Shown here piece after piece: positions 5,677 through 62,830 of a stretch of DNA of 64,000 nt. Numbering within the stretch: the first letter of the stretch is position 1; each line of letters begins with the position of its first letter. The notes beneath the pieces are model-generated. The model was not told where the DNA came from. It saw only the letters and a program-made list of their open reading frames with translations, and ran no database searches. The translations under genes and the position numbers were made by a program. The stretch lies in assembly GCA_015061285.1 (NCBI GenBank), contig SUWW01000001.1, positions 1 through 64,000 of the forward strand, in the 5' to 3' direction. Source of the stretch: Bacteroidales bacterium. GTDB taxonomy: Bacteria > Bacteroidota > Bacteroidia > Bacteroidales > Marinilabiliaceae.

Positions 5677-6023
5677 TAAATTGTAAGTGAGCAATTTACT
5701 ATTATGGCGGATACAGAAATGTGTTCGCCATTTTCTATTTTATGGTAAGGATTATGCTTGCGGGAACATTTCTGCTGACGCATGCATCGCGTCCCTACAT
5801 GCGCCAACTAATTATGCATTTACAATTTTCAATTTTCCATCGCAATCGTTTGCGAGTAAAAAAGGTTGACTACGGCCGTTTTAGTGTGAATAAATCTAAA
5901 ATCATCGTAATGGCACTGCTATCTTTGTTCGCATATAGTTAGTTCAGAGTAGGCGTAAAATTTTGCATATACATAATTTTTATACCTACACGAATGGTTT
6001 AATCGTAAATATTATATATATAA
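5677..6023. other. Intergenic region upstream of susA
   Basis: Contains a degenerate palindromic repeat at about 5773-5801 (GACGCATGCATCGCGTCCCT, related to the element at 49186-49248 inside the MmeI-type gene), an AT-rich CAATTTTCAATTTTC motif (5823-5838), and the operator-like palindrome at 5842-5853. The expected -7 box is only loosely matched (AAAATTTTG, 5957-5965). No gene is seen. Confidence 0.55.
5842..5853. promoter_or_regulatory. Operator-like palindrome upstream of susA
   Basis: GCAATCGTTTGC, extended to TCGCAATCGTTTGCGA with flanking symmetry. It matches the form GCAANCGNTTGC that occurs three times upstream of susC. The central CG with flanking symmetry is the hallmark of LacI-family operators. 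No LacI-type gene is in the window, so the regulator is inferred. Confidence 0.5.
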
Positions 6024-7868
6024 ATGAATAGAATTCTCTTTCTCGCCCTTGCTGCCCTTACCATTGGCACGGCTCAAGCTCAAAAGAACTCCATCGCTAT
6101 TCAGCATGTAGAACCTATGAACTGGTGGGTGGGTATGCACAATCCCAATCTGCAACTTCTCGTTCATGCCAAAGGCATTGCTGAGTGTCGTCCACAAATA
6201 GATTACACTGGTGTAACTATCAGCAGCACAACGCTTACCGACAATGAAAATTACATATTCTTAAACCTCAATATTGCGCACGATGCCAAGCCTGGCAAAT
6301 TCGATATTCGGTTTATGAAAGATGGCAAGCAGGTAACCGTTGTAAACTACGAACTCAAGGCTCGCGAAGCTAATTCTGCCAACCGAGAGAGTTTCACTTC
6401 CGACGATGCCATATACCTACTCATGCCCGACCGCTTTGCCAATGCCAACCCTGCCAACGACGATATGCCTAATTTGATTGAAAAAGCCGACCGCAAAGCC
6501 GACTATGGCCGTCATGGTGGCGACTTGCAAGGCGTGATGGAACATATCGACTACATAAAAAATCTTGGTATGACAGCCCTTTGGATGACACCTGTGTTGG
6601 AAAACAACATGCCACAATCGTCGTATCACGGCTATGCCATCACCGATTATTATGCCGTTGATGCACGCCTTGGCTCACTCGACGAATACAAACAATTGAG
6701 CGATAAACTTCATCAGAATGGTATGAAGTTGATTATGGACATGGTGTTCAACCACTGCGGCACAAACCACTGGTGGATGAAGGATTTGCCATGCAAGGAC
6801 TGGATTTTCCAATGGAACGGCAACCCAATGCGCTCGTCGTATCGTCTTTCTACAGTGGCCGATACGCATTGCTCGCAGTTCGACCTACGTCAGGCTACCG
6901 AAGGTTGGTTCGATAGCTCGATGGCCGACATGAACCTTGGTAACGAATTGGTTAAGAACTACTTCATACAGAATAGTATATGGTGGGTTGAGACCGTTGG
7001 TCTTGATGGCATTCGACAAGATACTTATCCTTATCCAGAGAAAAACGCAATGCGCGAATGGAACTTGCGTGTGCGCGAGGAGTATCCAAATTTCAACATC
7101 GTAGGCGAGGCGTGGATTAGCGAAGCAAGCAAACTTGCTTATTGGCAAAAAGATGCAAACAACAAAGATGGCTACAACTCGGAACTACCTACAATAATGG
7201 ACTTTCCTCTTATGGAAGCCATCTATCGAGCATTCAACGAACAACCTTCGTGGGACGACGGCATAATCCGCCTCTACAACTCGCTGGCAAACGACTATCT
7301 CTATGCCGACCCAATGCACATAATGGTGATGGGCGAAAACCACGACGCCGGTCGACTACTTACCAAGCTCAACGGCAATGTGAATAGCCTGAAAATGGCG
7401 ACTGCATTCCTGGCTACGGTGCGTGGTATAGCGCAGTGGTATGTTGGTACTGAGGTGCTTATGGAAGGCGACGCAGTGCAACACGCCTACATTCGCCGCG
7501 ACTTTGCGGGTGGCTGGCAAGGCGACAAAGAGAACAACTTCACTGCGCGCAAAGGTGCAGCAGCCGATATGTATGACTACACCTCGCGACTCTTCAACTA
7601 TCGCAAGCAGAGCGATGCCTTGCGACATGGCGAACTGCTTCACTTCCTACCTGTAAACGAGGTGTATGTATACTTCCGCTACACCGATAAAGAGTGCGTA
7701 ATGGTAGTTATGAACAATAGCGATGCCGAGCAAAAACTCGACACACCACGCTATGCCGAAAAACTTGCGCAATACACTAATGGCAAGGACATCATCAGCG
7801 GACAGTCTGTCGACATCAACAATATCACCATAAAAGCAAAAACAGCATTAGTAGTAGAATTGAAATAA
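6024..7868 (+). CDS. susA: Periplasmic GH13 neopullulanase/cyclomaltodextrinase (SusA-like)
   Basis: A 614-aa protein close in length to Bacteroides SusA. Signal peptide MNRILFLALAALTIGTAQAQ without a lipobox, so it is periplasmic. An N-terminal beta-sandwich (about 25-115) precedes the alpha-amylase barrel. Catalytic residues are visible: GLDGIRQDTYPY (about 327, nucleophile Asp), IVGEAW (about 359, acid/base Glu), and MGENHDAGR (about 436, third Asp), with conserved region I MDMVFNH (about 240). It would cleave maltooligosaccharides, cyclodextrins or pullulan entering through SusC. It forms its own transcription unit with a terminator at 7937-7972 and an operator-like site upstream. Confidence 0.88.
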   Translation: MNRILFLALAALTIGTAQAQKNSIAIQHVEPMNWWVGMHNPNLQLLVHAKGIAECRPQIDYTGVTISSTTLTDNENYIFLNLNIAHDAKPGKFDIRFMKDGKQVTVVNYELKAREANSANRESFTSDDAIYLLMPDRFANANPANDDMPNLIEKADRKADYGRHGGDLQGVMEHIDYIKNLGMTALWMTPVLENNMPQSSYHGYAITDYYAVDARLGSLDEYKQLSDKLHQNGMKLIMDMVFNHCGTNHWWMKDLPCKDWIFQWNGNPMRSSYRLSTVADTHCSQFDLRQATEGWFDSSMADMNLGNELVKNYFIQNSIWWVETVGLDGIRQDTYPYPEKNAMREWNLRVREEYPNFNIVGEAWISEASKLAYWQKDANNKDGYNSELPTIMDFPLMEAIYRAFNEQPSWDDGIIRLYNSLANDYLYADPMHIMVMGENHDAGRLLTKLNGNVNSLKMATAFLATVRGIAQWYVGTEVLMEGDAVQHAYIRRDFAGGWQGDKENNFTARKGAAADMYDYTSRLFNYRKQSDALRHGELLHFLPVNEVYVYFRYTDKECVMVVMNNSDAEQKLDTPRYAEKLAQYTNGKDIISGQSVDINNITIKAKTALVVELK

Positions 7869-8049: not shown

Positions 8050-8085
8050 GCAAACGTTTCCGCAAACGTTTCCGCAACCGATTGC
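8050..8085. promoter_or_regulatory. Triple tandem 12-bp operator array upstream of susC
   Basis: Three contiguous 12-mers: GCAAACGTTTCC (8050-8061), GCAAACGTTTCC (8062-8073) and GCAACCGATTGC (8074-8085). Each carries a central CG with partial dyad symmetry and agrees with the single susA site. They lie about 208 bp upstream of the susC ATG. The form is LacI-like, but 12-bp periodicity is too tight for three dimers side by side, so either alternative registers or another kind of regulator is used. Confidence 0.6.
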
Positions 8086-8292
8086 ACTCTTATGGCGGTT
8101 AAACATGCTTTAGTTGTGTGAAAAAATGTTGCCAATACTTGCTTTTTAGTGAAAATTTGCATTGCTGGAGTGTGAGAGAGAGGCGCAGCGATGCGAGTCT
8201 TAAAACAAGCAGAACACTACGGCAGAAAAAATAAGTCCAAAAAACTAAAAAGAAGAATGTTAATTATTTATCAATCTAAAAATCAATCTATC

Positions 8293-11200
8293 ATGAATGG
8301 AAGACAATTCCTCAAAGAAGCGCTTTTGACGCTGATGTGCATGATGGGCGCATTGTCAGTATGGGCTCAGCAGATTGCAGTCAAAGGTGTTGTTCGTGAT
8401 GCGGCCGACAATTCGCCAATTCCAGGCGTTTCGGTCGTTGTCAAAAACACAACAAGAGGCACCATCACCGATTTCAATGGCAACTTTAGTGTCAATGCCA
8501 ACCAAGGCGATGTGCTCGTATTCTCATTTATAGGATACACCAATCAAGAACTTGCTGCAGCAGCCAACATGCAAGTAAGCCTTGTTAGCGATGCTCAAGA
8601 ACTCGACGATGTAGTTGTTATTGGTTATGGTACGGCCAAGAAAAACGATATGACAGGTTCAGTTACAGCTATCAAGCCTGACGAAATGAACAAAGGTATG
8701 ATTACCAATGCTCAAGATATGATTTCGGGCAAGATTGCTGGTGTGAACGTAACAAGCGATGGCGGTACGCCAGGTGGTGGCTCAACCATTCGTATTCGTG
8801 GTGGTTCTTCGCTCAACGCATCTAACGACCCACTTATCGTCATCGACGGTCTTGCAATGGACCAAAGCGGTGTGAAAGGTTTGGCCAACCCACTTTCGAT
8901 GGTCAATCCTGCCGACATTGAGACATTCACCGTACTCAAAGACGCTTCGGCTACAGCCATCTATGGTTCGCGTGGTTCGAATGGTGTTATCATTATTACT
9001 ACTAAAAAAGGTAAAGCCAACGGCGGTCGTCCACAGATAAGCTACAACGGCAACGTGTCTGTAAGTATGATACAGAATCAACTCGAATTGCTCGATGGCG
9101 ATGAATATCGCGCAAAGATTGAGGAGTTGTATGGCGAAGGTGGTATGTACTACAACGAGAAGACGTATGCAGCAATCAAAGCTAACCTCGGCGACGCAAA
9201 CACCGATTGGCAAGACGAGATTTTCCGTGTAGCACTCAGCACCGACCACAACCTCACTATCAGCGGTGGCGTGAAAGATGTTCCTTATCGCGTTGGCTTT
9301 GGCTATACGAAACAAAATGGTATCCTCGATACCTCAGACTTCGAGCGCTACACCGTTTCGCTCAACGTTAATCCTACATTCCTCGACAAACACCTAAGCT
9401 TCAACCTTGCTGCAAAAGGTATGTTAGCAAAGAGCCGTTTTGCTGATACGGGAGCTATCTCGGCAGCTTATCGTATGGACCCAACACAGCCTGTGAAGAC
9501 CGACGACGAGAAGTATCAAAACTTCGGCGGTTTCTTCCAGTGGACTGTAAATGGCGAATCGCTTAGCGACCCTAATTGGGCATACAACACTAACCGCAAT
9601 GCTCCAGGCAACCCTGTTTCGTATCTTGAAGATAAGGAAGACAAAGCAACCTCTAAATCGTTTATTGGCAGCTTAGAAGGCGACTACAAGATTCATGGTT
9701 TTGAAGACTTGCGCATTCATGGTAGCATTGGCATCGACGCATCTACTGGTAAGCAGACAACCGTTGTTAGTCCATATTCATACCTAAACACCTACTTCGG
9801 TTGGGACGGTTGGGACAAGATCGACAAATACAACCTGTCGCTCAATGCCTACGCACAATACAGCAAAGACTTCACCGAGACTCAGCACTTCGATATAATG
9901 GCTGGTTATGAGTGGCAACACTTCCACAAAGTGCAAGAATATGATGGTTGGGGACTCTATCAGAGCACATATGTAGAAACAGTGAAAGATGCAGATGGCA
10001 AAGTAGTAAAAGATGAAGCCGGCAACCCCGTTACACAGCCATCAGCCCTTGCTGGTACGCAATATGGTCGTAGTGCTAAGACTATCAAGACAGAGAACTA
10101 CTTAGTTTCGTTCTTTGGACGTTTGAACTATTCGCTTCTCGATCGCTATTTGCTTACCATAACATTGCGTAACGATGGTTCGTCACGATTCAAAGACCAC
10201 TGGTCACTCTTCCCATCAGTAGCTCTTGGATGGCGTGTTAAGCAAGAGGCATTCCTCGAAGATGTTGAAGCTATTTCGGATATGAAAGTACGTCTTGGCT
10301 ATGGTCAAACAGGTCAGCAAGAAGGCATTGGCGACTATAACTATTTCGCGTCATACAACATCAGCTCGGGCGTAGGTAGCAAATACAACCTCGTTGGCGA
10401 TGGCACAATGTATCGTCCTGATGCATACAACGAAAACCTCAAATGGGAAACTACCACCACATACAATGCTGGTCTCGACCTCGGCTTCTTCAACAACCGT
10501 TTGACTGTGAATGCCGACTTCTACTATCGCGAGACAACCGACCTCTTGAACACTGTTTCGGTTGCTGCAGGTTCTAACTTCCGCAACAAAGTAACTTCAA
10601 ACATCGGTTCGCTCGAGAACAAAGGTTTCGAACTTGGCATCACCGGCCACCCAATTCACACCGACGATTGGCATTGGGAAGTGAGCGCAAACGCTACATA
10701 TAACAAGAATGAAATCACCGAACTCATCAGCAACGACGAAGGTTATTATGTAGAGACTGGTGGTATATCTTCGGGTACTGGTAACTACTGTCAAGCACAC
10801 GCCGTTGGTCATGCAGCAAGCGCATTCTATGTATATCAACAAGTTTATGGCTCTGACGGCAAAGCACTCGAAGGCGTATTTGTCGACCGCAATGGCGATG
10901 GTCAGATAACTTCTGACGACCGTTACTTCTACAAGCAACCTACAGCACCTTGGACATTTGGTTTCAGCTCTAAACTTCAGTGGAAGAATGTCGACTTCGG
11001 ATTCTCACTCCGTGCAAGCATAGGTAACTATGTATACAACGACCGTGAAGCTGGTTCGAGCGACCTTAGCCAAAGCACAGGTTTGTGGAACTCTTCATTC
11101 GAATATCTATCGAATCGTCCTAAATATGCTTTCGAACGCAACTGGGGCGCACTCTCAAACTACTCGGCTTTGTCGGACTACTTCGTACAGAATGCTTCGT

Positions 11201-11406
11201 TTCTCAAGTGCGACAACATCACACTTGGCTATAGCTTCAAGAACATAGCTTCGGCTCCGCTCAGTGGTCGTGTATATGGTAGTGTATCGAACGTATTCAC
11301 CATCACCGACTACAAGGGCATCGATCCTGAAGTGTTTGGTGGCATCGACAATACCATCTATCCACGTCCTATCACGTTCCTTGTAGGTCTTTCACTTAAC
11401 TTCTAA
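8293..11406 (+). CDS. susC: SusC-like TonB-dependent outer-membrane transporter
   Basis: About 1037 aa from the ATG at 8293, chosen because it starts the signal peptide ending WAQQIAVKG. Residues about 25-105 form the CarboxypepD_reg-like domain (VKGVVRDAADNSPIPGVSVV ... FSFIGY), followed by the TonB-box region (ELDDVVVIGYGTAKK), the plug with the SusC signature (GTPGGGSTIRIRGGSSL, LIVIDG, LKDASATAIYGSRGSNG), and a 22-strand-type barrel ending in an aromatic residue (FLVGLSLNF). It imports maltooligosaccharides together with SusD. First gene of susCDEFG with 13 bp to susD. Confidence 0.93.
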   Translation: MNGRQFLKEALLTLMCMMGALSVWAQQIAVKGVVRDAADNSPIPGVSVVVKNTTRGTITDFNGNFSVNANQGDVLVFSFIGYTNQELAAAANMQVSLVSDAQELDDVVVIGYGTAKKNDMTGSVTAIKPDEMNKGMITNAQDMISGKIAGVNVTSDGGTPGGGSTIRIRGGSSLNASNDPLIVIDGLAMDQSGVKGLANPLSMVNPADIETFTVLKDASATAIYGSRGSNGVIIITTKKGKANGGRPQISYNGNVSVSMIQNQLELLDGDEYRAKIEELYGEGGMYYNEKTYAAIKANLGDANTDWQDEIFRVALSTDHNLTISGGVKDVPYRVGFGYTKQNGILDTSDFERYTVSLNVNPTFLDKHLSFNLAAKGMLAKSRFADTGAISAAYRMDPTQPVKTDDEKYQNFGGFFQWTVNGESLSDPNWAYNTNRNAPGNPVSYLEDKEDKATSKSFIGSLEGDYKIHGFEDLRIHGSIGIDASTGKQTTVVSPYSYLNTYFGWDGWDKIDKYNLSLNAYAQYSKDFTETQHFDIMAGYEWQHFHKVQEYDGWGLYQSTYVETVKDADGKVVKDEAGNPVTQPSALAGTQYGRSAKTIKTENYLVSFFGRLNYSLLDRYLLTITLRNDGSSRFKDHWSLFPSVALGWRVKQEAFLEDVEAISDMKVRLGYGQTGQQEGIGDYNYFASYNISSGVGSKYNLVGDGTMYRPDAYNENLKWETTTTYNAGLDLGFFNNRLTVNADFYYRETTDLLNTVSVAAGSNFRNKVTSNIGSLENKGFELGITGHPIHTDDWHWEVSANATYNKNEITELISNDEGYYVETGGISSGTGNYCQAHAVGHAASAFYVYQQVYGSDGKALEGVFVDRNGDGQITSDDRYFYKQPTAPWTFGFSSKLQWKNVDFGFSLRASIGNYVYNDREAGSSDLSQSTGLWNSSFEYLSNRPKYAFERNWGALSNYSALSDYFVQNASFLKCDNITLGYSFKNIASAPLSGRVYGSVSNVFTITDYKGIDPEVFGGIDNTIYPRPITFLVGLSLNF

Positions 11407-11419
11407 AAACCGAATTATC

Positions 11420-13012
11420 ATGAAACTCAAATATATTCTGCCTTCGGCTCTTGTGGCAGCTATGGGAATGAGCTCATGCGTCAACGACTTGGACGTAACA
11501 CCTATCGATCCAAGCACAGTGATGATTGTTGATGCTAACGGCCTTTTCAACAAGTGCTATGCTAATATGGCAGTGGCTGGCAACAGCGGCGCCAATGGCG
11601 ACTGCGACATCGACGGCCTCGATGGTGGTACAACAGGCTTTGTGCGTCAGATGTTCAACGCCAACGAACTTACTACCGACGAATCGATATGCGCATGGGG
11701 CGACCCTGGCATTCCTGAGTTCAACTTCAACCAATGGACTGCTGCTCACCCAATGCTCAAAGGTTTCTACAACCGACTTACTACTGGTATCTCATATTGC
11801 AACCACTACCTCAGCGAGTGTAGCGCTGTAGATGCCACAATGACTGCCGAAATTCGTTTTGTGCGTGCATTCTACTATTTCCAACTTATGGACTGCTTCG
11901 GCAACGTACCTTTTGCAACCGAACTTCTTTCGGACAATGCGCCACAAGCATCTCGCTCTGAGGTATTTGCATTTGTAGAAAACGAACTTCTCGAATGTCT
12001 CAACGATATGGCTGAGCCTCGCACCAACACCTACGGTCGTGCCGATAAAGCTGCCGCTTGGATGCTTCTTGCACGCATCTATTTGAATGCTGAAGTATAC
12101 ACAGGCACAGCACAATGGGATAAGGCTGCCGAATATGCTAAAAAAGTAATGGAATCGGGCTACAAAGTATTCGACAATGGTGGTAATTACGAAGGCGCAA
12201 GCGGTTGGTCGGCATATCAGATGCTCTTTATGGGCAATAATGGTGAAAATGGTGCTCAAGTTGAAGCCATTCTTCCTATTCTTCAAGATGGAAAAGAGAC
12301 AACCAGCTGGGGCACAACACTCTTCCTTATGGCTTCGACCTTCAAGGCTGATATGACTTTGGTTGGCACTGCTACCAACGGCACTTCAGAGGCTTGGGGC
12401 GGCAACCGAGCTCGTCCTGAACTCGTTGCAAAATTCTTCCCTAATGGCGATGCTCCACAAGTTGATGTTTGGGAAATGATAGACAAAGCAGGCGACGACC
12501 GCGCACTCTTCTGGGGTAAAGATCGTAGCCTCGACATCACCAATACTACCGAGTTTACCGAAGGCTATTCTGTATGCAAATTCACCAACTTCTACTCAGA
12601 TGGAAGTTCGCCCAAAGATCCTCAATTCCCTGATGCCGACTTCTTCATGATGCGTGCTGCTGAAGCTAATCTTACATACGCCGAAGCTCTTACACGTCAG
12701 AATGGTGGCACAGCACCGCAAGAGGCTCTCGATGCACTCAATGCACTCCGCACTCGTGCTCATGCTACTAAAAAAGCCAGCTATACGCTTGCTGAAATAT
12801 GCGACGAATGGTGCCGCGAATTCTACTACGAAGGTCGCCGTCGTTCGGACCTTATCCGCTTCGGTTTCTTCGGTGGCAACAACTCATACAAATGGCAGTG
12901 GAAAGGTGGCGTAAAAGCAGGTGCAAACTTCGATGAACACCTCAACATATTCGCTATTCCTGACGATGATATGAATGCAAACTCTAATCTCGTTCAGAAT
13001 CCAGGTTATTAA
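11420..13012 (+). CDS. susD: SusD-like starch-binding lipoprotein
   Basis: A 530-aa RagB/SusD-family lipoprotein; lipobox Cys in GMSSCVNDLD. TPR-like helices include RFVRAFYYFQLMDCFGNVP (about 140-158) and KAAAWMLLARIYLNAEVY (about 212), and the C-terminal SusD block runs EICDEWCREFYYEGRRRSDLIRFG (about 455-480), ending in the family-typical LVQNPGY. It forms the surface lid on SusC and binds starch helices. It sits directly between susC and susE with short spacers, so co-transcription is near certain. Confidence 0.93.
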   Translation: MKLKYILPSALVAAMGMSSCVNDLDVTPIDPSTVMIVDANGLFNKCYANMAVAGNSGANGDCDIDGLDGGTTGFVRQMFNANELTTDESICAWGDPGIPEFNFNQWTAAHPMLKGFYNRLTTGISYCNHYLSECSAVDATMTAEIRFVRAFYYFQLMDCFGNVPFATELLSDNAPQASRSEVFAFVENELLECLNDMAEPRTNTYGRADKAAAWMLLARIYLNAEVYTGTAQWDKAAEYAKKVMESGYKVFDNGGNYEGASGWSAYQMLFMGNNGENGAQVEAILPILQDGKETTSWGTTLFLMASTFKADMTLVGTATNGTSEAWGGNRARPELVAKFFPNGDAPQVDVWEMIDKAGDDRALFWGKDRSLDITNTTEFTEGYSVCKFTNFYSDGSSPKDPQFPDADFFMMRAAEANLTYAEALTRQNGGTAPQEALDALNALRTRAHATKKASYTLAEICDEWCREFYYEGRRRSDLIRFGFFGGNNSYKWQWKGGVKAGANFDEHLNIFAIPDDDMNANSNLVQNPGY

Positions 13013-13033
13013 TTATCTAAAAAGACTTAGAAA

Positions 13034-14260
13034 ATGAAAAAGTTATTATATAGCGCATTGATGCTGAGCTGCATAGGCACATTCACTGCTTGCGACGATG
13101 ATCGCGATGACAACCCTACACTCAGCGATAATGCCAATGTTGAGTTCGTTCTCAACACGCCTGCTTACGCTTCGTCGATAGTCGATTTAGCATCTTCGGA
13201 GAGTGTAAACCTCTATTGTTCGCAACCTGAATGGGGCTTTCCTACGGCTGTAAACTATATAACTCAAGTGTCGCTAAACGGCGAATACAAAATATCTAAT
13301 GAAACTGCTGATGCCGATGAATCGGGCGAGACAAAGGCCGATTATTACGCTCTCGACCCTATCACTTCGGCAAGTTTGGCCATCGTGCCCGAAAATTTAG
13401 CAGCAGCACTCACATATCTCAATGGTTGGGAAGGCGACGAAGATGTGCCTGCCACAGAGGAGATATATGTACGCATAGTTGCTACACCAAGCACCAACTC
13501 ATCGAATGGACTTTCGGCTCAGTCGGTTGCTAAATATGCAGTAACATCGAACGTAGTAAAGTTCAATGTAGCTCCATACTACGTAGAACTTGCTCCAGCG
13601 CCTATCGAACTCTGGTATTTGGTTGGTGCAAATATTGGTAGTGCTTCATGGTCGAACGGAACCGACCAAATCGGAAATGGCTTAGTGCCTCTCGAACCAA
13701 TTCAAAATGCTGAATACGACAAGAAGACTGGTCGTGGCGAAATAGCCATAACAGCATATTTCGACGATGAATTCAAACTCATAAATGTTCCTGGCAACTG
13801 GGAAATTCAGTGGGCACAAGGCGACGCCTTCGGTTCATTCAAGAAGAATGATGGCGGGGCTGGCAACATTGTTGTTCCTTCGGCTGGCTACTACAAAGTG
13901 TTGCTCAACACGGCTACTGATGTACTCGAAATTACTAAAGCAGAAGAAGTAAAAGAACTTGGCGAAATATCTATCGCAGGCAGCTTCAACGATTGGGGCG
14001 ACCAACCAATGACTCCTGTATTCTCGCTCACCGACGACCAAAAGGCTCACAACCACCTTTGGAAATACGAGTTCGAAGCAACTGAAGATGTCGAGCTCAA
14101 GTTCAAGACCACTGGCAGCTGGGACACCAACTGGGGTACTACTACATTCCCTACTGGATGGGGCGTAAATGGAGGCGACAACATTCCTGTGGCTGCTGGT
14201 AAATACTTGATACTCTTCGACGATATTACTGGTTACTACACCTTCATAACTCAAGAGTAG
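13034..14260 (+). CDS. susE: SusE-like starch-binding outer-membrane lipoprotein
   Basis: A 408-aa lipoprotein (lipobox ending FTACDDDRDD). The N-terminal Ig-like domain (about 35-180) carries the SusE start pattern NVEFVLNTPAYASSIVDL. Two C-terminal CBM-like beta-sandwich domains follow (about 195-300, and 315-405 starting ISIAGSFNDWGDQP), with the aromatic residues such domains use to hold glucan. It helps keep starch at the surface and shapes which chain lengths enter. Its start MKKLLYSALM is nearly the same as that of the next gene, so the two look like duplicates. Exact SusE or SusF assignment rests on order. Confidence 0.82.
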   Translation: MKKLLYSALMLSCIGTFTACDDDRDDNPTLSDNANVEFVLNTPAYASSIVDLASSESVNLYCSQPEWGFPTAVNYITQVSLNGEYKISNETADADESGETKADYYALDPITSASLAIVPENLAAALTYLNGWEGDEDVPATEEIYVRIVATPSTNSSNGLSAQSVAKYAVTSNVVKFNVAPYYVELAPAPIELWYLVGANIGSASWSNGTDQIGNGLVPLEPIQNAEYDKKTGRGEIAITAYFDDEFKLINVPGNWEIQWAQGDAFGSFKKNDGGAGNIVVPSAGYYKVLLNTATDVLEITKAEEVKELGEISIAGSFNDWGDQPMTPVFSLTDDQKAHNHLWKYEFEATEDVELKFKTTGSWDTNWGTTTFPTGWGVNGGDNIPVAAGKYLILFDDITGYYTFITQE

Positions 14261-14349
14261 AGCAGTTTATATAAACATTATTTATATAAATATCGGGTGC
14301 CGTTTTGCTTGCCATGCGGCGGCATCCGATTCTAAAAAAGATTCCGAAA

Positions 14350-15795
14350 ATGAAAAAGTTAATATATAGCGCCCTCGCATTCATGGCTGTCGGCTTCGCT
14401 TCGTGCGACGACGAAAGCTACGACGATTGGGCTCAGCCTATAACCAATGCACAAGAGGCTTCACAAAACTTCACTTTTAGTGCTGCTGCCGTTGATGCCA
14501 TCAACCTTGCCGACATCGACACCAACATTGTGAAAGTTTTCACTCCTACAGTTGATCTCACCGACGACAATGCCACTGTCAACAACTTCAACGTATTGTT
14601 CTCTGATGGTTCTACTATCAGTGCCGATGCTAATGGTAATGTGCTTGTAGATGACCTCGTTTCAGTTATTGAGGCAATCTACGGCAAAGCTCCCGAACTG
14701 CGCACACTCCCAACGAGTGTTGTAGCTCTCATCAATCGCGATGGTCAACTTATGAAGAGCGACACAGCTAAGATTGAGATAAAGGCTACGCTCGAAGCAC
14801 CTGTAATCGAATCGGCATACTATGTCATTGGAGCTGTTCCTGGTTGGAGTTTCGAAGCAGCTGCAACGGCTAAGTTCGAGCATTCTGACGTTAATGTATA
14901 CGACGACCCAATCTTCACCATAACAATGGAAGCACCATACAAGAAAGATGATGCTGGTGAATTTGTTCTTGATGAAGATGGCAATAAAATTCGCGACGAT
15001 TATTGGTTCCGCTTCGTACCTCAATCATCGCTCGAAAAAGCCGATTGGACTGGTACTATCGGTTGCCTCAAAAATGGCACTGAAGACCTCGAAGGCAAGC
15101 TCTATATGGTCGATGAAATTGAAGGCGATGGCTGCATCAAGATGCCTGCTACCGATGGCGCTCTCTTCTATAAGATTGAACTCAATATGATGGAATACAC
15201 CTACAAAGTTACTCCGCTCATGTTCGAGAATTATATCTATTTGCCAGGCAATGCTCAGAGCTGGAGCCCTGAAACAGCACCTGCACTCAAGCATCAAGGC
15301 AATGGCATCTACACCGGCTTTGCATATATGGATGGTGAATTCAAGTTTACTCGCGCTCGCAATTGGAGTTCTGAATACAATGCAGGAGCGTTCAAAAACG
15401 CAAGCGAAGGCTTCAGCCTCGAAAAAGGTGATGGTGGCAATATCATCAATAGCGTCTCTGGTCTCTATTACTTCGAAGTTGATGTAGTTAATGGCGACCT
15501 CAAGGCTACCCCAATTACCAACATGAACCTCGTTGGCGTTTTCAATGATTGGAACAATGCTGATGATACGCAGCAGATGACGTGGAATGCTACTAACCTA
15601 TGCTACGAGATAACTGGCGCAACAGTAACTGCCGATGGTTGGAAATTTACAGCTAACAATGCTTGGGACATCAACCTTGGTGGCGACTTGAACGACCTCG
15701 TTAGCAATGGCGGCAACCTTAGCGCAGTTGGCACTACCATCAAGCTCTATCCTTGCCGTACTACAAAAGACGAGATTTACGCTACGGTAGAATAG
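14350..15795 (+). CDS. susF: SusF-like starch-binding outer-membrane lipoprotein
   Basis: 481 aa from the ATG at 14350, chosen for its lipoprotein signal (MKKLIYSALAFMAVGFASC). An N-terminal Ig-like domain (about 30-150, NFTFSAAAVDAINL...) is followed by three CBM-like domains: AYYVIGAVPGWSFE (about 158), NYIYLPGNAQSWSPETA (about 295) and MNLVGVFNDWNNADD (about 393). Three CBM modules is the SusF arrangement in Bacteroides, against two in SusE. It is an accessory surface binder, not required for uptake in the model system. The 90-bp gap from susE has no terminator. Confidence 0.82.
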   Translation: MKKLIYSALAFMAVGFASCDDESYDDWAQPITNAQEASQNFTFSAAAVDAINLADIDTNIVKVFTPTVDLTDDNATVNNFNVLFSDGSTISADANGNVLVDDLVSVIEAIYGKAPELRTLPTSVVALINRDGQLMKSDTAKIEIKATLEAPVIESAYYVIGAVPGWSFEAAATAKFEHSDVNVYDDPIFTITMEAPYKKDDAGEFVLDEDGNKIRDDYWFRFVPQSSLEKADWTGTIGCLKNGTEDLEGKLYMVDEIEGDGCIKMPATDGALFYKIELNMMEYTYKVTPLMFENYIYLPGNAQSWSPETAPALKHQGNGIYTGFAYMDGEFKFTRARNWSSEYNAGAFKNASEGFSLEKGDGGNIINSVSGLYYFEVDVVNGDLKATPITNMNLVGVFNDWNNADDTQQMTWNATNLCYEITGATVTADGWKFTANNAWDINLGGDLNDLVSNGGNLSAVGTTIKLYPCRTTKDEIYATVE

Positions 15796-15801
15796 CATAT
15801 A

Positions 15802-15889
15802 TATCACCAGATAAAACGAATAGTTGGCATGAACATCATAAGTCTTGCTAATTAATACAAAAAGTATAATTTCGTTTTATCTGGTGATA
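15802..15889. repeat. Perfect 19-bp inverted repeat between susF and susG
   Basis: TATCACCAGATAAAACGAA (15802-15820) and its exact reverse complement (15871-15889) enclose 50 nt. The right arm ends 5 nt before the first susG ATG. With no T run after it, it is a poor terminator. It could be an RNA stem that controls susG translation, protects the upstream mRNA, or is a very small mobile (MITE-like) element. No second copy was seen in the window. Confidence 0.75.
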
Positions 15890-15894
15890 ACTAT

Positions 15895-17547
15895 ATGAAT
15901 ACTAAACAATTATTTATGCATATAAGCTCAAAAATGGCAGGCTTCCTATTGGCTACTTCAATAGGTTGCCTGCTTTTCAGTTGTTCTAACACAGCTGAAC
16001 CGACACCCGACACTGATGTCATTATGCAAGCCTTCTATTGGGACGTGCCTGTAGATGCTGCCAACCAAAATGGCAATTGGTGGAATCACCTTGCTCAAGT
16101 GGCACCCGAGCTCCACGATGCGGGAATAACTGCAATTTGGACTCCAGTGCCAGCAAAAGGCAATTGGGGCATCTACGACAGCGGCTATGGCATCTACGAC
16201 CATTATGACCTCGGCAACTATAGCCAAAAAGGAACAGTGGAAACTCGCTATGGCAGCCGTGCTGAACTCGAACAGATGATTGCCACTATGCATCAGAATG
16301 GTATATATGTATATAGCGATGTGGTGCTCAACCATCTTTATGGTGGTGATGAAAATTTTGAAGCTAATCCTGCCGTAACAGACTACGCAAAGCATAATTA
16401 TAAATATGAGCCTTACCCCGACGACGAAATTCGATGGTCTGACGATTCGGTGGCTCACACACGCACCAATATTTTCTATCCGACACATGCCAACGAGCCG
16501 AACTACGAGTGGCACTACAACCACTTCCACCCGTCGTCGGCAACCGACTCTCTCACCGACTTTGCAGATGACGTGCTGCGTCCCAACACAAAATTCTTTG
16601 GCAACGACCTCGATTTGAACAACGAAGAGGTTTGCCAACGTCTGTGCGATTGGGGCAAATGGCTAAAATCGGACATCGGATTTGATGGCTTCCGCATGGA
16701 TTTTGTGCACGGACTTACCACGGAATTTGTTGCCAAATGGGTGAACAATTTGCCCAAGCAAGAAGGCAAGCAACCATTTGTTGTGGGTGAATATTGGGCT
16801 CAAGATAGTCGCTACATCAAAGATTGGGTAGAAACTGTTGCAAGCCTCGGAGCCAATGTTCATGCATTCGACTTTCCGCTCAAGTTTATCCTTACCGACA
16901 TGTGCAACAAAAGCGGTTCGGAGTTCAATATGTATTGGCTCAACCACGCTGGACTCGTTCGCAACCAATATGGCGCATCGCTTCCAAGCAATTCGGTGGT
17001 GACTTTCGTCGAAAATCACGACACTGGCAAAGAGTACGACAAATGGATTACTCACGATATGCACCTTGCATACGCATACATACTCACTCACGAAGGCACG
17101 CCATGCATATTCTACCCGCACTTCTTTGGCGATATTATGACCGATGCGCAAGACAACGAGTACACCATCATACCGCCTACAAACCTCGGCGAGATTATTG
17201 CTCAGCTTATAAATATTCGAAAAACATATTTAGGTGGAAATCTCGTTGTACTTAGCGAACAACCATCTGCCGAACCTAAGGAAAACTTGCAAAATGTTTA
17301 CATTGCTCGCCGACAAGGCAACGGCGTGAAAGATGGTGCTATAGTGGTCATAAACAACGACGACTACGAAGCAAAATCGCTCACAGTAAATGTCAATGCT
17401 GATGGTTTTACAAATTGGGCTAAGCAAACTCTTGTAAATTTGATTGATACAGCAGAAACTATTACTGTTGATGCCAATGGCCAAGTGGAGCTTAGTGCAC
17501 CAGCCCGCAATTACAGCATTTGGGTGAAACAACAAGATTTGAAATAG
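15895..17547 (+). CDS. susG: Surface GH13 alpha-amylase lipoprotein (SusG-like)
   Basis: A 550-aa lipoprotein with signal and lipobox around [13 protein letters not shown]. The start may be 15895 or the in-frame ATG at 15916. The amylase barrel begins at once ([12 protein letters not shown]). Region I is [10 protein letters not shown] (about 137), the nucleophile is in [12 protein letters not shown] (about 263), the acid/base is in VVGEYW (about 296), and the third carboxylate is in [12 protein letters not shown] (about 371). The start of the barrel resembles GH13_5-type liquefying amylases. Unlike Bacteroides SusG (about 690 aa, with an inserted CBM58), there is no room for such an insertion. 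It makes the first cut in extracellular starch. Confidence 0.85.
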
Positions 17548-55773: not shown

Positions 55774-55807
55774 ACAAGAAAACTGCATGCATTTACCACA
55801 ATATCTC

Positions 55808-57355
55808 ATGAAACAAATTATTCATCTACTAATTCTATGTTTTATTCTGACATCGTGCACATCTACAACAAAAAAAACTATTGTGGTGTCGCAATGTAGC
55901 ATCGATGATTGGCGCAACCAAATGAACCAAGAGATATTGCGCGAAGCATTCTTCCATACCGACATGAATGTAGAAATACACTCAGCGAGCGATAATTCGC
56001 AGCAACAAATAGCCATGATAGAGAGTTTTATCAAGAGGCGCGTCGACCTTATTATTGTAGCTCCTAACGAAGCCGAACCTTTGCGCCCAGTTATCGAAAA
56101 AGCCTTCGACGCGGGCATACCAATCATATTAGTCGATCGCAAAATAAATAGCAACAAATACACAGCTTTTATAGGAGGCGACAACGTAGAAGTGGGAAAA
56201 GCCGCTGGACTCTACATAGCCGAACTGCTGAATGGCAAAGGAAATATTATTGAGATTGAGGGATTAGACGGTTCATCGTCGTCGCAAGAGAGGCATAACG
56301 GGTTTCATGAGGTTATAGATAAATACAAAAACATAAAAGTTGTAGCAAATTTCGAAGCCGACTGGCTCAAGGATAAGGCCAAGCAAATAATGGACACAAT
56401 ATCCATATCGCCCGATGATGTCGATTTGGTCTTTGCCTACAACGACCGCATGGCAATAGGAGCCAAAGAGGCAGCGCAGACACGTTATCCGCAGAGCAAA
56501 CTTGCACAAATACCCTACATAGGCGTTGACGCACTTCGCAACGATAGCATTGGCATTGGGCGAATAGAAGACGGAATGCTCAGAGCCTCGTTTCTGTATC
56601 AGACGGGTGGCGCCAAAGCTATCGACATTGCCGACTGCATATTGAACAACAAGCCATACAATCGTAATAATATATTTCAGACCAGCATTGTAGATAAGTC
56701 GAACGTTCATCTGATGACCATTCAAACAAAGCATATCGACGAGCAAAACAATAAGATTGAGTTTTTGAATAATAAGCTCAACGATTTCTTTAGAGATTAC
56801 GAAGCTCAACGCACCATTCTCATAGCCTTTGTTATAATTACCATTCTTACGTGCAGCTTACTGTGGGTATCGATAAAAGCCTACCGAAACTCTACACGCA
56901 TGAACAACCAGTTGGCGCAGCAAAAAGAGCGATTGGAGCAACAGCGCGACCAACTTGAAGCCGAGCGCGACAAACTGATAGAGCTGCAAGCCACATCGGC
57001 AACGGAACCAGAAAGCAACACAATGGTTAACGAAGAGAATAATATGTTTATGGATAGGCTGAAAAAGGTTATCGACGAGAATATGAGCAACTCAGATTTG
57101 AGCGTTGAGATAATTGGCGCTGAAATGGGACTTAGCCGAGTGCAGCTATACAGACGAACAAAAGCTGCTTGCGGGTTGAGCCCTAATGAGACATTGCGCA
57201 CGCAGCGACTCAATAAGGCCTATAAACTTCTGCACGAAACACAAAAAACTATAAGCGAAGTGGCTTACGAAGTAGGATTCTCTTCGCCATCATATTTTGC
57301 CAAATGCTATAAAGATTACTTTGGTAAGAACCCAACCGAATCGCTTCGAAACTGA
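55808..57355 (+). CDS. One-component sensor: periplasmic sugar-binding domain, TM, AraC-type DNA-binding domain
   Basis: 515 aa from the ATG at 55808. A lipoprotein-like signal (LLILCFILTSC) leads to a Peripla_BP_4/RbsB-like domain (about 25-310: TIVVSQCSIDDWRNQMNQEI, FIKRRVDLIIVAPNEAEPL, IEIEGLDGSSSSQERHNGF, VFAYNDRMAIGAKEA). One TM segment (about 335-356, TILIAFVIITILTCSLLWVSI) and a coiled coil (about 365-400) lead to an AraC domain (about 415-513: SRVQLYRRTKAACGLSPNE, ISEVAYEVGFSSPSYFAKCYKDYFG). No kinase or receiver domain is present, unlike Bacteroides hybrid two-component sensors that share both ends. It would sense a sugar outside and bind DNA directly. No glycan locus lies next to it. 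Confidence 0.85.
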   Translation: MKQIIHLLILCFILTSCTSTTKKTIVVSQCSIDDWRNQMNQEILREAFFHTDMNVEIHSASDNSQQQIAMIESFIKRRVDLIIVAPNEAEPLRPVIEKAFDAGIPIILVDRKINSNKYTAFIGGDNVEVGKAAGLYIAELLNGKGNIIEIEGLDGSSSSQERHNGFHEVIDKYKNIKVVANFEADWLKDKAKQIMDTISISPDDVDLVFAYNDRMAIGAKEAAQTRYPQSKLAQIPYIGVDALRNDSIGIGRIEDGMLRASFLYQTGGAKAIDIADCILNNKPYNRNNIFQTSIVDKSNVHLMTIQTKHIDEQNNKIEFLNNKLNDFFRDYEAQRTILIAFVIITILTCSLLWVSIKAYRNSTRMNNQLAQQKERLEQQRDQLEAERDKLIELQATSATEPESNTMVNEENNMFMDRLKKVIDENMSNSDLSVEIIGAEMGLSRVQLYRRTKAACGLSPNETLRTQRLNKAYKLLHETQKTISEVAYEVGFSSPSYFAKCYKDYFGKNPTESLRN

Positions 57356-57837: not shown

Positions 57838-60131
57838 TTACCACAAATAGAATGTATTCTGTGAGCAAACTAAATATGTGAAATCATTAGATAGGATCAT
57901 ATAACGATACTGCCCATCTTGAATAATCTGAATCCGATATTTACCTACCAAAGGGTTATTGGGAGCTTCGAACACAACGGAGGAGTTGCGTCGTTAGAAA
58001 AAGTTCTATTCCTATCTGCAGGATCTATACCAGGTAATTTTTTGTCGTATTGGTATGGTTTATAAGAGAACGAAAGAACGGTTGTGTTCAATCCTATTTC
58101 GCCAGAACGCCAACAACTCGGATCATTATTCGCTAAATTCATATAAAATCTCGTGAATCTAGACATATTATTTTTATTAATCCCGAAAGTCCCATTTCCT
58201 CGGTATTCAATTCGTGATTTAGGAGCATTTCCATCAGGATCCACCAACTTCACCGGATTCCCCGCGCAATATACATATCCGCCAATATTCGGGTACTTCT
58301 CCGCCAACGCATCCACGCCATACCACAAAGCCAACACTGGCTCATAGTAGCGTGCGCCATAGTAGTAGAGTCCGGTCTCGCTGTCTAACTCCTTGCCATT
58401 GAACTTCCACGGAGATTCAAAACTCGTCGCATGCTCATCAATTAACGCCTCTCCATAAGGTTTATATGACACAAACTGCGTGGCATTGCCATCTCTATCA
58501 GTAATATACGAGGTAGAGCCTAAGTGGCCTGAATGGTAGAAATAGATGTCATTTTCTTGAATATTCTCGGCGTTGGTGTAGCCGTACCCAGCACCTTCAT
58601 CTTCTGGGTCGCTTGGTTTTTCGTACATTACTGGTGCGCCTGGTGTGCCACCGTACGGGCGTTTGTATGGTTTCATTGGCCAACCACTCGGCACATCATA
58701 GTTGCCAAGAGGCTCTAAACTATAATCCCCGTATGCGCCGCTATACTCGGCCTCGCCATAAATACCTTTGGCTGTTGGTGGTCCGGGTGGTATGCCAAGG
58801 GCAGCATAATAATCGTTGCGAGACTGAGTTATCAAGTTCAATCTTTCCGCATAGTCTTTTTGCCCTGCCGTTACACAAGCCTTGGAAGCATCGTATAGGT
58901 TGTCAAACTCCCCTGCGCCTATTTTGCTTGCTATGCGTTGGCTGCCTGCATAATAGTGCTTGGTGAATCTATCACTATTCACAACCATGTAGGGGCTCAC
59001 GTACATCGTCCAGTTGTCCTTGTCGTGCCACAAGATGCCTTGCGGTGCGCCATTCACAAAAGCTACTGTCGTTGGTCCATGGCTCTTAATAACGCGCTCA
59101 CCTGCATGGTTGTAAGTATATCTTGAAACATAACCATCATCGCCGAGAGATTGCAGGCGGTTCTCCTCGTCCCACTGCATAACGCGGAGCGTGTTGGCTG
59201 TGGTATCTTCTACTGAAATAGGATTACCGTTGGCATCGTATGTAAAGAGTTTGTTGCCAGCGCTGCTTACAGCGTTCGGATGGTTTGGCGTGTTGTACTC
59301 ATAGCTTACCGAATCCTTTTGCAGCGGGTTGCTCATCAGGTCGTAGCGCATGAGCAGCTCGTAATTCTTATCTTTCGCTGCACCACTGGCACTTACAAGG
59401 CGGTTGAGCTCGTCGTATTGATAGCTGTGGCTGTATGTGCCGCCTATCTCGCCTGTTGGTGCAGCAGCATTAGAGATGCCGAGTATGTTGTCGACATTGT
59501 CGTATTTATAGACGTTCTCCATCATCTTCACACCATTGCTCGTGAGGCTCATGGAGTTCAGATGCAGGCGTTTTTCGTCGTAGTCGTACTTAGTCTCCGT
59601 GCCGTTGCCCATCTTGCGATAGGTCAGGTTGCCGTACTTATCGTACTTCTGGCTCTCTATCAACGTCTGCTTGTCGCCATCCTTTTCGGTGGTGATGGTG
59701 CTAAGATTTCCGCCTTTGTCATACGTATAACTAACCACCTCGCCATCGGGGTAGGTCATGGTCTGCACACGGTTCCAACTATCATAATCTGCCTCCCAGA
59801 TGTAGGTGCGGATATTGGTCTCGGCAAGGATAATCGACTTTATGGTCTTGGTCACCTCGCCAAGTTTGCCGTAGTAGTATGCCTCGCCGCCACTGCCGTC
59901 TTCTACGAGTTTCAAGCGTCCTGCGCGGTTGTACTTCGTCTCCGAGGTGTCGCCGTATGTATAAGTTACGCGATTATAGATGTTCTTCGGATAGATTATC
60001 TCGCTCAGGCGCTCGTAGTCGTAGGTGTACTGTATCTTGCCGTTAGCCGTACGCAAGTTCGGTGTCTGTTTGGCAATCATGTTGCCTGCCGCATCGTACT
60101 CGAAATTATTTGCCAACAAAGGTAGTGTCAA
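57838..60131 (-). pseudogene. RHS protein with frameshifted C-terminal tip (module C)
   Basis: A 728-aa frame (57945-60131) without signal peptide and with only a TTG-type start, so an N-terminally truncated RHS gene. YD repeats fill about 10-340 (YDAAGNMIAKQTP, YDYERLSEIIYP, YDSWNRVQTMTYPDGE). The RHS core spans about 470-635 (YFYHSGHLGSTSYITDRDGN, FNGKELDSETGLYYYGARYYE, GNPVKLVDPDGN). The tip then starts APKSRIEYRGNG. The annotated frame ends TPPLCSKLPITLW, but another frame (57990 to 57838) continues sensibly: NSSVVFEAPNNPLVGKY, IQDGQYRYMILSNDF, LVCSQNTFYLW. A one-base shift near the A5 run 57998-58002 explains this. The tip end resembles a lipocalin C-terminus. No immunity gene follows. 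A disabled or phase-variable cassette. Confidence 0.75.
58227..58706 (-). repeat. RHS core repeat, copy 1 (module C)
   Basis: About 480 bp from LGNYDVPSGW to LVDPDGN. Copies 2 and 3 at 61220-61705 and 63455-64000 encode nearly the same residues, with scattered changes. Each copy is followed by an unrelated tip, which makes them natural sites for recombination. Confidence 0.85.
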
Positions 60132-60729
60132 TATGGGAGATGTTAGATGGATAGTTGCTGTAATATATGGTTGTAATCAAGTTCTCATTATTAACAATTT
60201 TTACATAACAGCACGAATCGTCGCTATAGAATGTCGTTTCTTCATATAATGCATCAGCATAGTGTTTGTATACCAATACGTTGTTTTGGTATTTTATAGA
60301 AAACGACAATCTGTAATATTGATATATTGGCAATGATATTAATAATGCGGTCATTGTTGGCACAATCATAGTAACACATTCTGGCAACTTAGCTTTCCCG
60401 AACATGAAAGCATATGCGTAAAAGAATAATAATGCCACATACGATATTGATACCATCCAAAAGAATGGTCTGGCTATCCACTTTACGGCATCGTGAAATA
60501 TCGTTGCAAGTATGTTTGAAATTAGCAAACCCAAGATAGCTACGAATAGCCATTTGTGCTTTTTCAAATAGACAACACCTATGGTTGTTTTGTTGTTTTT
60601 ACAAAAACGAACAATGATAACAATATCAAATAAATACACTCCAATATAGAGAATTTCTCTTGCGTCGCATAACGACAATAAAATTGTCGTTACTAATACC
60701 AATAAGTTCAATACTACAATATTTTTCAT
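60106..60729 (-). CDS. Four-TM membrane protein, candidate immunity protein for tip B
   Basis: 207 aa from the ATG at 60729 (an ATG at 60750 would overlap the upstream stop). Hydrophobic segments at about 4-20, 28-44, 56-73, 82-104 and 112-135, then a soluble C-terminus (SIKYQNNVLVYKHYADALY). It starts 1 nt after the orphan RHS tip B, the normal place for an immunity gene, and a membrane location would fit a toxin that acts on the membrane. No family recognised. Its last codons overlap the TTG-start region of the next RHS fragment, showing that the fragment was joined here by recombination. Confidence 0.6.
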   Translation of the reverse strand: MKNIVVLNLLVLVTTILLSLCDAREILYIGVYLFDIVIIVRFCKNNKTTIGVVYLKKHKWLFVAILGLLISNILATIFHDAVKWIARPFFWMVSISYVALLFFYAYAFMFGKAKLPECVTMIVPTMTALLISLPIYQYYRLSFSIKYQNNVLVYKHYADALYEETTFYSDDSCCYVKIVNNENLITTIYYSNYPSNISHIDTTFVGK

Positions 60730-60730
60730 G

Positions 60731-61732
60731 TTATAACCTAAAGTTAACATCGAATTCCACTTTTACAATAACACTGACAGAGAAATGTATTCTAAAACTT
60801 CCTTTAGAAGTATTATTAGTAGAGGGTTGTCTTACCTCATAGTTAGGAGATAAATCTTTATTCAACCCATTCAATTCAAAGAATTCTGTGTGAACTTCAT
60901 GATCAGTATACCCATCAGTATACTTTCCTATAAATGACTGTCCACAATCTACAATTGTTAAACTGCCTAAATAATCAACACCAACTTCCGCAGAGACCCC
61001 TTGGTGCATACGCATTCCCTTTGATGTAAAAGAAGATGTAACATCAAATTTTATAGGTCCATTATCGTCCGTAGTTTGACTTACAGATGCACCTATCAAA
61101 TCAAGATCTAATAAGCTTACAGAAGCTCCTGCTTGTAATGGACCTAATGCAGCTTCTGCACCTACTTGAACACCGACATTGAGATTTATACTAATAGAGA
61201 ATTCTGGTTCTCCATCTTCATTACCATTGTAATCAACAAAACGTATAGGATTACCATGGCAATATACGTAACTACCAATACTTGGATAATCTTCAGCTAA
61301 TTTGTCAGGTCCATACCAAGCCGTCAACGAGGCTTCATAATACCTCGCCCCATAGTAATACAACCCTGTCTCGTTGTCCAGTTCCTTTCCGTTGAACTTC
61401 CATGGTTGTTCGTACGAAGTGTTATGCTCATCTACAATAGCTTCGCCGTATGGCTTATAGCATACAAACTGTGTAGCATTACCGTCTTTGTCGGTAATGT
61501 AAGAAGTGCTTCCTAAATGGTCGGAGTGGTAGAAATAAACATCCTTTTCTTGAATATTCTCGGCGTTGGTGTAGCCGTACCCAGCACTTTCGTATTCTGG
61601 GTCGCTTGGTTTTTCGTACATCACGGGTGGTCCGGGAGTGCCGCCGTATGGGCGTTTGTATGGCTTCATTGGCCAACCACTCGGCACATCATAGTTGCCA
61701 AGAGGGGGGGTATGTTTCTTGACATTGAACAT
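60731..61732 (-). CDS. Orphan RHS core plus tip B
   Basis: 333 aa. Starts MFNVKKHTPPLGNYDVP: only 9 codons before the RHS core begins, with no signal peptide or YD repeats, so it is a stand-alone cassette of core (about 10-170) and tip. Core ends YCHGNPIRFVDYNGN. The tip (about 173-333) is unlike the other two: FSISINLNVGVQVGAEAALG, ASVSLLDLDLIGASVSQTT, GMRMHQGVSAEVGVDYLG, alternating small and hydrophobic residues suggestive of beta strands, perhaps membrane-inserting. No known toxin family recognised. A G7 run (61704-61710) lies at the 5' junction. Candidate immunity gene 1 nt downstream. Confidence 0.7.
   Translation of the reverse strand: MFNVKKHTPPLGNYDVPSGWPMKPYKRPYGGTPGPPVMYEKPSDPEYESAGYGYTNAENIQEKDVYFYHSDHLGSTSYITDKDGNATQFVCYKPYGEAIVDEHNTSYEQPWKFNGKELDNETGLYYYGARYYEASLTAWYGPDKLAEDYPSIGSYVYCHGNPIRFVDYNGNEDGEPEFSISINLNVGVQVGAEAALGPLQAGASVSLLDLDLIGASVSQTTDDNGPIKFDVTSSFTSKGMRMHQGVSAEVGVDYLGSLTIVDCGQSFIGKYTDGYTDHEVHTEFFELNGLNKDLSPNYEVRQPSTNNTSKGSFRIHFSVSVIVKVEFDVNFRL
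61220..61705 (-). repeat. RHS core repeat, copy 2 (module B)
   Basis: Homology to copy 1 begins abruptly at LGN (about 61705), next to a run of seven G on the plus strand (61704-61710), and ends at the tip junction DYNGN. Confidence 0.85.
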
Positions 61733-61751
61733 TTGTGGTTAAATATAATTT

Positions 61752-61768
61752 GCGGATTTCAAATCCGC
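61752..61768. repeat. GCGGATTTCAAATCCGC palindrome upstream of tip B
   Basis: Perfect dyad around a central C, 20 bp upstream of the tip B start. The sequence from here to the ATG resembles that upstream of the relic at 57521, so the palindrome seems to travel with RHS leaders. Confidence 0.75.
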
Positions 61769-61779
61769 TGGAACGGATT

Positions 61780-62829: not shown

Positions 62830-62830
62830 A

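Follow-up and report, generated by a model that had tools for sequence, protein, structure and literature searches.

A conserved 36-bp operator block of 12-bp boxes upstream of susC in the Marinilabiliaceae and its likely LacI-type reader

As a model case of glycan uptake, starch use by Bacteroidetes has been described as controlled by SusR in Bacteroides. SusR of Bacteroides thetaiotaomicron is a membrane regulator under which susA and susC-type operons are activated and, in the available part of its description, its predicted sites are direct repeats 67 or 77 bp apart (PMC3878776); the same excerpt gives wwwTATGTTnTAnAACATAwww as the site consensus of Cur/Crp (BT4338). In the CytR-CRP system of E. 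coli, according to the portion of the source available, a LacI-family protein sits beside CRP-type sites, its half-sites may be inverted or direct, and a flexible site is combined with a conserved overall layout, with variable half-site spacing and a weak motif (PMC3454398). CcpA activates or represses from cre sites, including the clostridial cre-var, which are CG-centred palindromes; the accessible text describes single sites, and no three-box block or such geometry (PMC5263246). MdxR of Enterococcus faecium, a LacI-family protein with a positive role in maltodextrin use, is encoded away from its target cluster, and no operator is described for it in the excerpts available (PMC3737153). Likewise, the available part of a study of structural colour reports a cluster of LacI, maltose transporter, bPGM, GH65, GH97, GH13 and susCDE genes and describes no operator (PMC9131120). 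We found no earlier description of a LacI-type operator block at sus genes in the open-access literature, as far as its accessible text goes.

Here we analyse a window of 64,000 nucleotides (positions 1 to 64,000 of contig SUWW01000001.1, assembly GCA_015061285.1) from a Bacteroidales bacterium of the family Marinilabiliaceae. The window carries a sus-type locus (Table 1), and, as the initial annotation stated, susC is preceded by three abutting 12-bp units (8050-8085) and susA by one (5842-5853). The targets are those of SusR, with a putative LacI-type reader and 12-bp boxes in place of a membrane regulator and widely spaced repeats. Unlike those of CytR, the half-sites are strong, stand on a 12-bp grid, serve starch targets and lie at a near-fixed distance from the -7 box. 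The CG-centred palindrome is shared with cre, and the solved structures nearest to the candidate reader, P0002, are those of CcpA; MdxR shares with P0002 the LacI family and a gene apart from the targets, in another phylum and with another transport system.

Table 1. Features of the susA-susC region, in positions of the window
Feature	Position	Strand	Remarks
Lone palindromic site before susA	5842..5853	+	GCAATCGTTTGC
-7 box of susA, predicted	5920..5927	+	TATCTTTG; 66 bp past the susA site
susA-like GH13 gene	6024..7868	+	Cyclomaltodextrinase N- and C-terminal domains
Box 1 of susC operator block	8050..8061	+	GCAAACGTTTCC; left half-site exact, right half one base off
Box 2 of susC operator block	8062..8073	+	GCAAACGTTTCC; left half-site exact, right half one base off
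Box 3 of susC operator block	8074..8085	+	GCAACCGATTGC; full palindrome of the motif
-7 box of susC, degenerate, predicted	8152..8159	+	AAAATTTG; 66 bp past the block; by homology to TAnnTTTG at 65-67
susC-like TonB-dependent receptor gene	8293..11406	+	Start is the one common to relatives; a longer frame begins at 8191
Genes after susC, whole run	11420..17547	+	Names from reading translations only
susD-like gene	11420-13012	+	By reading the translation
First lipoprotein-like gene	13034-14260	+	By reading the translation
Second lipoprotein-like gene	14305-15795	+	By reading the translation
Amylase-like gene	15895-17547	+	By reading the translation

No spacer separates the three boxes, which together make up 36 bp. 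Measured against the motif GCAANCGNTTGC, box 3 and the susA site match and boxes 1 and 2 are each one base away; the central-CG palindrome by which LacI-family operators are recognised is present in box 3 and in the susA site. Matches to the motif with at most one mismatch number 7 in the window against 3.0 expected, a mild enrichment that 2 of 100 shuffles reach, and two adjacent units appeared in none of 300 dinucleotide shuffles; the tandem arrangement is not chance. No part of the window matched an Rfam RNA family at gathering thresholds. As separate observations made by reading translations, several open frames on the minus strand at 57945-63922 have common RHS-like repeat ends (DNGTGLYYYGARYY-type) and differing tails, and the frame at 55787-57355 appears to combine a sugar-binding-protein domain, a membrane segment and an AraC-type helix-turn-helix.

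The arrangement of boxes was compared across 50 susC loci, retained from 54 after G014, G024, G039 and G017 were dropped (no susC in the examined piece); nine of the 50 are from the window's genus and derive from susC loci rather than LacI-upstream pieces, and G002 is not among them. With L for a left half-site, R for a right half-site and P for both, the three-box classes are LLP (24 loci), LPR (12), LPx (2), LPP (2), PLP, PRR and LLR (1 each); three further loci have one box fewer (xLP) and four are largely degenerate (xLx 3, xLL 1). At least one full palindrome is found in 42 of the 43 three-box arrays, 41 of them keep both outer halves exact (the left half of box 1 and the right half of box 3), and the LPR arrays form near-perfect palindromes of 36 bp. 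A symmetric block is also found in the cultured relatives Alkalitalea and Natronoflexus. The half-site boxes of relatives thus stand in direct or mirror order. The initial annotation had described three palindromic operators, a description that nearly fits the window and does not fit the family, since most relatives have one full palindrome and a single half-site in each of the other boxes. It had also expected conservation before sus genes in close relatives, which is found in most, the exception being G002, without a site before its susC relative. A TGYAAA-like stretch is also conserved about 11-16 bp past the block in the susC promoters of the family (consensus of 33 loci); on the 12-bp grid it would count as a weak half-site two boxes further on.

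Direct half-site repeats in boxes 1 and 2, present in 24 of the 50 loci, could suggest that the block is read mainly by another, direct-repeat protein while the LacI protein reads the palindrome only, or neighbouring genes only, and direct repeats are the predicted sites of SusR and of the hybrid two-component regulators in Bacteroides, in the part of the literature available (PMC3878776). The half-sites, however, agree in sequence and CG register with the palindrome, other relatives carry them inverted (12 of 50) or palindromic as well, and the SusR repeats are separated by 67 or 77 bp, not 12, in the same source (PMC3878776), so that we regard this reading as highly improbable.

The distance from the block to the promoter is nearly fixed. 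Bacteroidetes promoters have a -7 box with the consensus TAnnTTTG, which is exact at susA and degenerate at susC of the window genome. It stands 65-67 bp past the block in 42 of the 50 susC loci, and a degenerate version is found at 66 in G000 and G003; the distances in G005, G011 and G013 are 65, 66 and 66 when measured from the last recognisable box, and in G001 and G006 the 55 bp from box 3 become 67 when the palindrome of box 2 is the reference. G036, with its -7 box at 76, is a clear exception to the spacing. Its block (L130) is mirror-symmetric and seems 1-2 bases short, with the -7 box about 12 bp too distant.

Whether the motif falls at random positions genome-wide, which the initial annotation had held would speak against an operator, depends on what is counted. 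The bare motif does so: the exact palindrome occurs at 11 sites in the window genome versus 9 for the reversed pattern, which is background, and for this reason it was dropped as a guide to a regulon. Other than those at susA, susC and C18:32226, exact palindromes are intragenic or precede genes without an evident starch link. The copy at C18:32226-32237, the sole one elsewhere in the genome that looks regulatory, lies between a divergent MFS transporter/HAD-type/GH65 operon, whose HAD-type phosphatase gene is probably a beta-phosphoglucomutase, and a SusG-like amylase with SusG CBM58 and SusG C-terminal domains. When promoter spacing is added (a palindrome, 65-67 bp, then TAnnTTTG), the distribution is far from random, with 39 matches in 38 of 71 genomes of the Marinilabiliaceae (assigned from named relatives including Natronoflexus, Alkalitalea and Geofilum) versus 1 for the reversed control. 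The gene downstream of 36 of these matches is susC in 26 cases, susG in 5, another amylase in 3 (read as such, with about 25% identity to the amylase-like gene of the window) and susA in 2; the remaining three (G001, G006 and G008) are susC loci, and starch-type genes follow in 39 of 39. The rule was derived from susC promoters, and its independent test consists of the ten matches at susA, susG and amylase genes; LPR arrays at susC escape it, as do 33 of the 71 genomes. In the window genome susA (66 bp) and the C18 susG (67 bp) fit, as two of 22 palindrome-orientation tests with a chance of about 0.0008 each.

A scan of the susA surroundings at 11 loci from relatives in the genus, allowing up to 2 mismatches, gave a single site. 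By reading of translations, GH65 or transporter genes immediately precede susA at 8 of these loci, where it would have no promoter of its own, and for this reason the scarcity of sites was rejected as a refutation. The spacing is not universal, as judged from the differing distances at the transporter promoters of the genus (L031-L040). There, sites come in pairs with a separation of 42 or 66-67 bp at 9 of 10 loci, and the second member of each pair is always GCAAACGTTTGA; the remaining locus has a single site. Of a pair, the site nearer to the -7 box ends 81 bp before it in five loci, 57 in three and 47 in one, and the single site is at 45 bp.

Three LacI genes are present in the window genome, P0002 (C18:185712-186795) and two on C8. 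P0002 matches PF00356 and PF13377/PF00532 above cut-off, corresponding to a LacI helix-turn-helix and a periplasmic-binding-protein-like core; it is an orphan far from the window genes, and among its recognised neighbours only a glycoside-hydrolase-like gene about 6 kb off offers a link to carbohydrates. The two C8 genes lie in clusters read as hexuronate, and C8 has no exact palindrome; on these two grounds they were set aside as less likely readers. Relatives of P0002 (E up to 1e-60) occur in 61 of the 71 family genomes, some of them paralog-like, and the closest named LacI genes are from assemblies of sheep rumen, reindeer and horse faeces. The upstream side of LacI was inspected in 53 loci, 44 outside the genus and 9 inside, leaving aside G020 and genomes whose only LacI match was paralog-like (about 33-42% identity). 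Outside the genus, susC is divergent beside the LacI ortholog in 41 of the 44 relatives, with the block in between; inside it, G011 and G013 have the ortholog immediately ahead of susC, and G008 has it next to the transporter. Judged from this gene order, the CcpA-like LacI protein P0002 is the likely reader of the block. One LacI-type regulator for both units, as the initial annotation proposed, gains support of a contextual kind, from the LacI-susC divergence around the block and from the same palindrome-to--7 distance at susA, susG and the amylases.

In wider sets of genomes the unified block was found in 1 of 395 from the phylum, the window genome itself, and in 12 of 393 order genomes, six of them outside the family; among the more distant LacI relatives in named records (at most 41% identity) there is no such block. 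At the six loci in other families the pieces examined hold a LacI relative in five and a susC relative in six, and the -7 box stands at 67 bp once, at 78, 57 and 50 in three others, and is missing in two. Two loci of another family (L152 at 9068, L153 at 3906) have a palindrome between LacI and a transporter gene, with TAnnTTTG at 68 bp. A record titled Desulfofustis sp. (L157, 539-550) holds a 45% LacI relative and a GCAAACGTTTGC site adjoining a half-site box; it may represent a transfer or a mis-binned contig.

Upstream of the block, most relatives carry a dyad resembling the Cur/Crp site. Of 37 loci outside the genus, 36 have it with at most 2 mismatches, centred 18 bp upstream of the block in 33 and 19 bp in 3; this set of 37 omits four such loci with a block score above 1 (G021, G023, G034 and G036); the dyad core ATGTTnTAnAACAT, again with up to 2 mismatches, is found 17-20 bp before the block in 38 of the 50 loci, its outer positions often ACATGT, not TATGT. 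At the three xLP loci the dyad is 19 bp from the first real box and the block 67 bp from the -7 box, so the two spacings seem to be held separately. This layout invites comparison with CytR, which acts beside CRP, can read direct half-site repeats and anti-activates, as the accessible text reports (PMC3454398). The same LacI reader and operator could accordingly serve as an anti-activator or repressor, blocking Cur/Crp without maltodextrin until an inducer releases it, and the dyad before the block, which keeps its distance even when a box is missing, speaks for such a role. On the other side, the window's own susC promoter lacks a Cur/Crp-like dyad (the best candidate has 5 mismatches), as does G003, yet both keep the block and the 66-bp spacing; a fixed distance to the -7 box is not obviously needed by a mere Cur blocker, and the susA and susG sites stand at the same 66-67 bp. 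We consider this role possible, if on the unlikely side. The window genome has one Crp-type helix-turn-helix gene, for which orthology to Cur is a candidate assignment, and BT4338 was not seen at polysaccharide-use genes of B. thetaiotaomicron in the available part of the study concerned (PMC6989115), which together with the missing dyad counts against a Cur partnership.

The boxes bear signs of having been copied and flipped. Spacer positions 8-11 are the same in boxes 1 and 2 of LLP arrays in 11 of 24 genomes (shuffled mean 2.6), and 12 of the 14 LPR and LPx arrays have a box 1 identical to box 3 as read on the opposite strand (shuffled mean 2.2); none of 20000 shuffles, which ignore ancestry, reaches either count, and seven different spacers contribute in each class. 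Spacers agree within species and differ between species. In genus g16 both box orders occur and share the spacer ATACC, the outcome that an inversion of the inner 24 bp would give. The amylase promoters of G051, G052 and G054 also have symmetric blocks, and in that of G052 both arms deviate identically from the half-site (GCAAAGG and CCTTTGC). In yeast, template switching that involves short inverted repeats homogenises the arms and inverts the spacers, according to the portion of the report available (PMC8604942); such a process would fit the within-species spacer match and the flipped inner boxes, with selection for symmetry as the alternative. The extra half-site boxes might also be functionless, with one palindrome as the operator and the others as debris of tandem duplication; the single palindrome in the same register at susA and the within-species spacers resembling recent copies speak for this. 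We nevertheless judge this improbable: half-sites are exact across 13 genera besides the window's own while spacers have diverged, three-box length is kept in direct and mirror classes alike, and the 0 to 3 mismatches in the unconstrained halves look like drift where it is allowed.

Taken at the level of sequence comparison, the block appears to be a real, conserved operator. We consider it probable, with moderate confidence, that it is the operator of P0002 as a CcpA-like LacI regulator of starch and maltose use and activates the susC promoter from an upstream position, both binding and activation being predicted; as part of this P0002-activator reading, the single palindromes in the same register would serve susA and the SusG-like amylase. 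LacI-type dimers span more than 12 bp, as in the PurR and LacI structures, and adjacent boxes would therefore be mutually exclusive: with each P0002 dimer centred on CG, either one dimer would occupy the palindrome or two would occupy boxes 1 and 3, 24 bp apart. If transcription starts a few bases past the -7 box, bound P0002 would aid RNA polymerase from about -84, where upstream activators typically sit, and in most relatives the centre of a Cur/Crp dimer would lie 24 bp from that of box 1. Slippage and template switching would homogenise or invert the box units as selection preserves the register. LacI proteins are mostly repressors, which counts against an activator, as do the distant, orphan position of P0002, the two other LacI genes, the degenerate -7 box of susC and the absence of the dyad here, the differing distances at the transporter promoters of the genus and at block loci in other families, the misfit of G036 and the missing site of G002. 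The initial annotation had proposed that the array, too tight at 12 bp for three LacI dimers side by side, may allow sliding or competing registers and thereby graded control. A bolder version, which we think unlikely, has the LacI activator on a register-switching, self-editing operator between Cur/Crp upstream and RNA polymerase downstream, with graded output. Register switching would mean a change between one dimer on the palindrome and two on the outer boxes 24 bp apart; self-editing would mean that template switching keeps the arms alike and flips the inner boxes, so that the palindrome could change box and the 36-bp place would stay.

The block is unusual in its near-rigid spacing on both sides, its half-site grammar and the concerted evolution of its boxes. 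Starch use in most of one family appears, from its promoter sequences, to rely on a LacI-type reader and an almost rigid arrangement of the promoter, and the block offers a natural test of how an operator evolves by the copying and flipping of units under a fixed geometric constraint.
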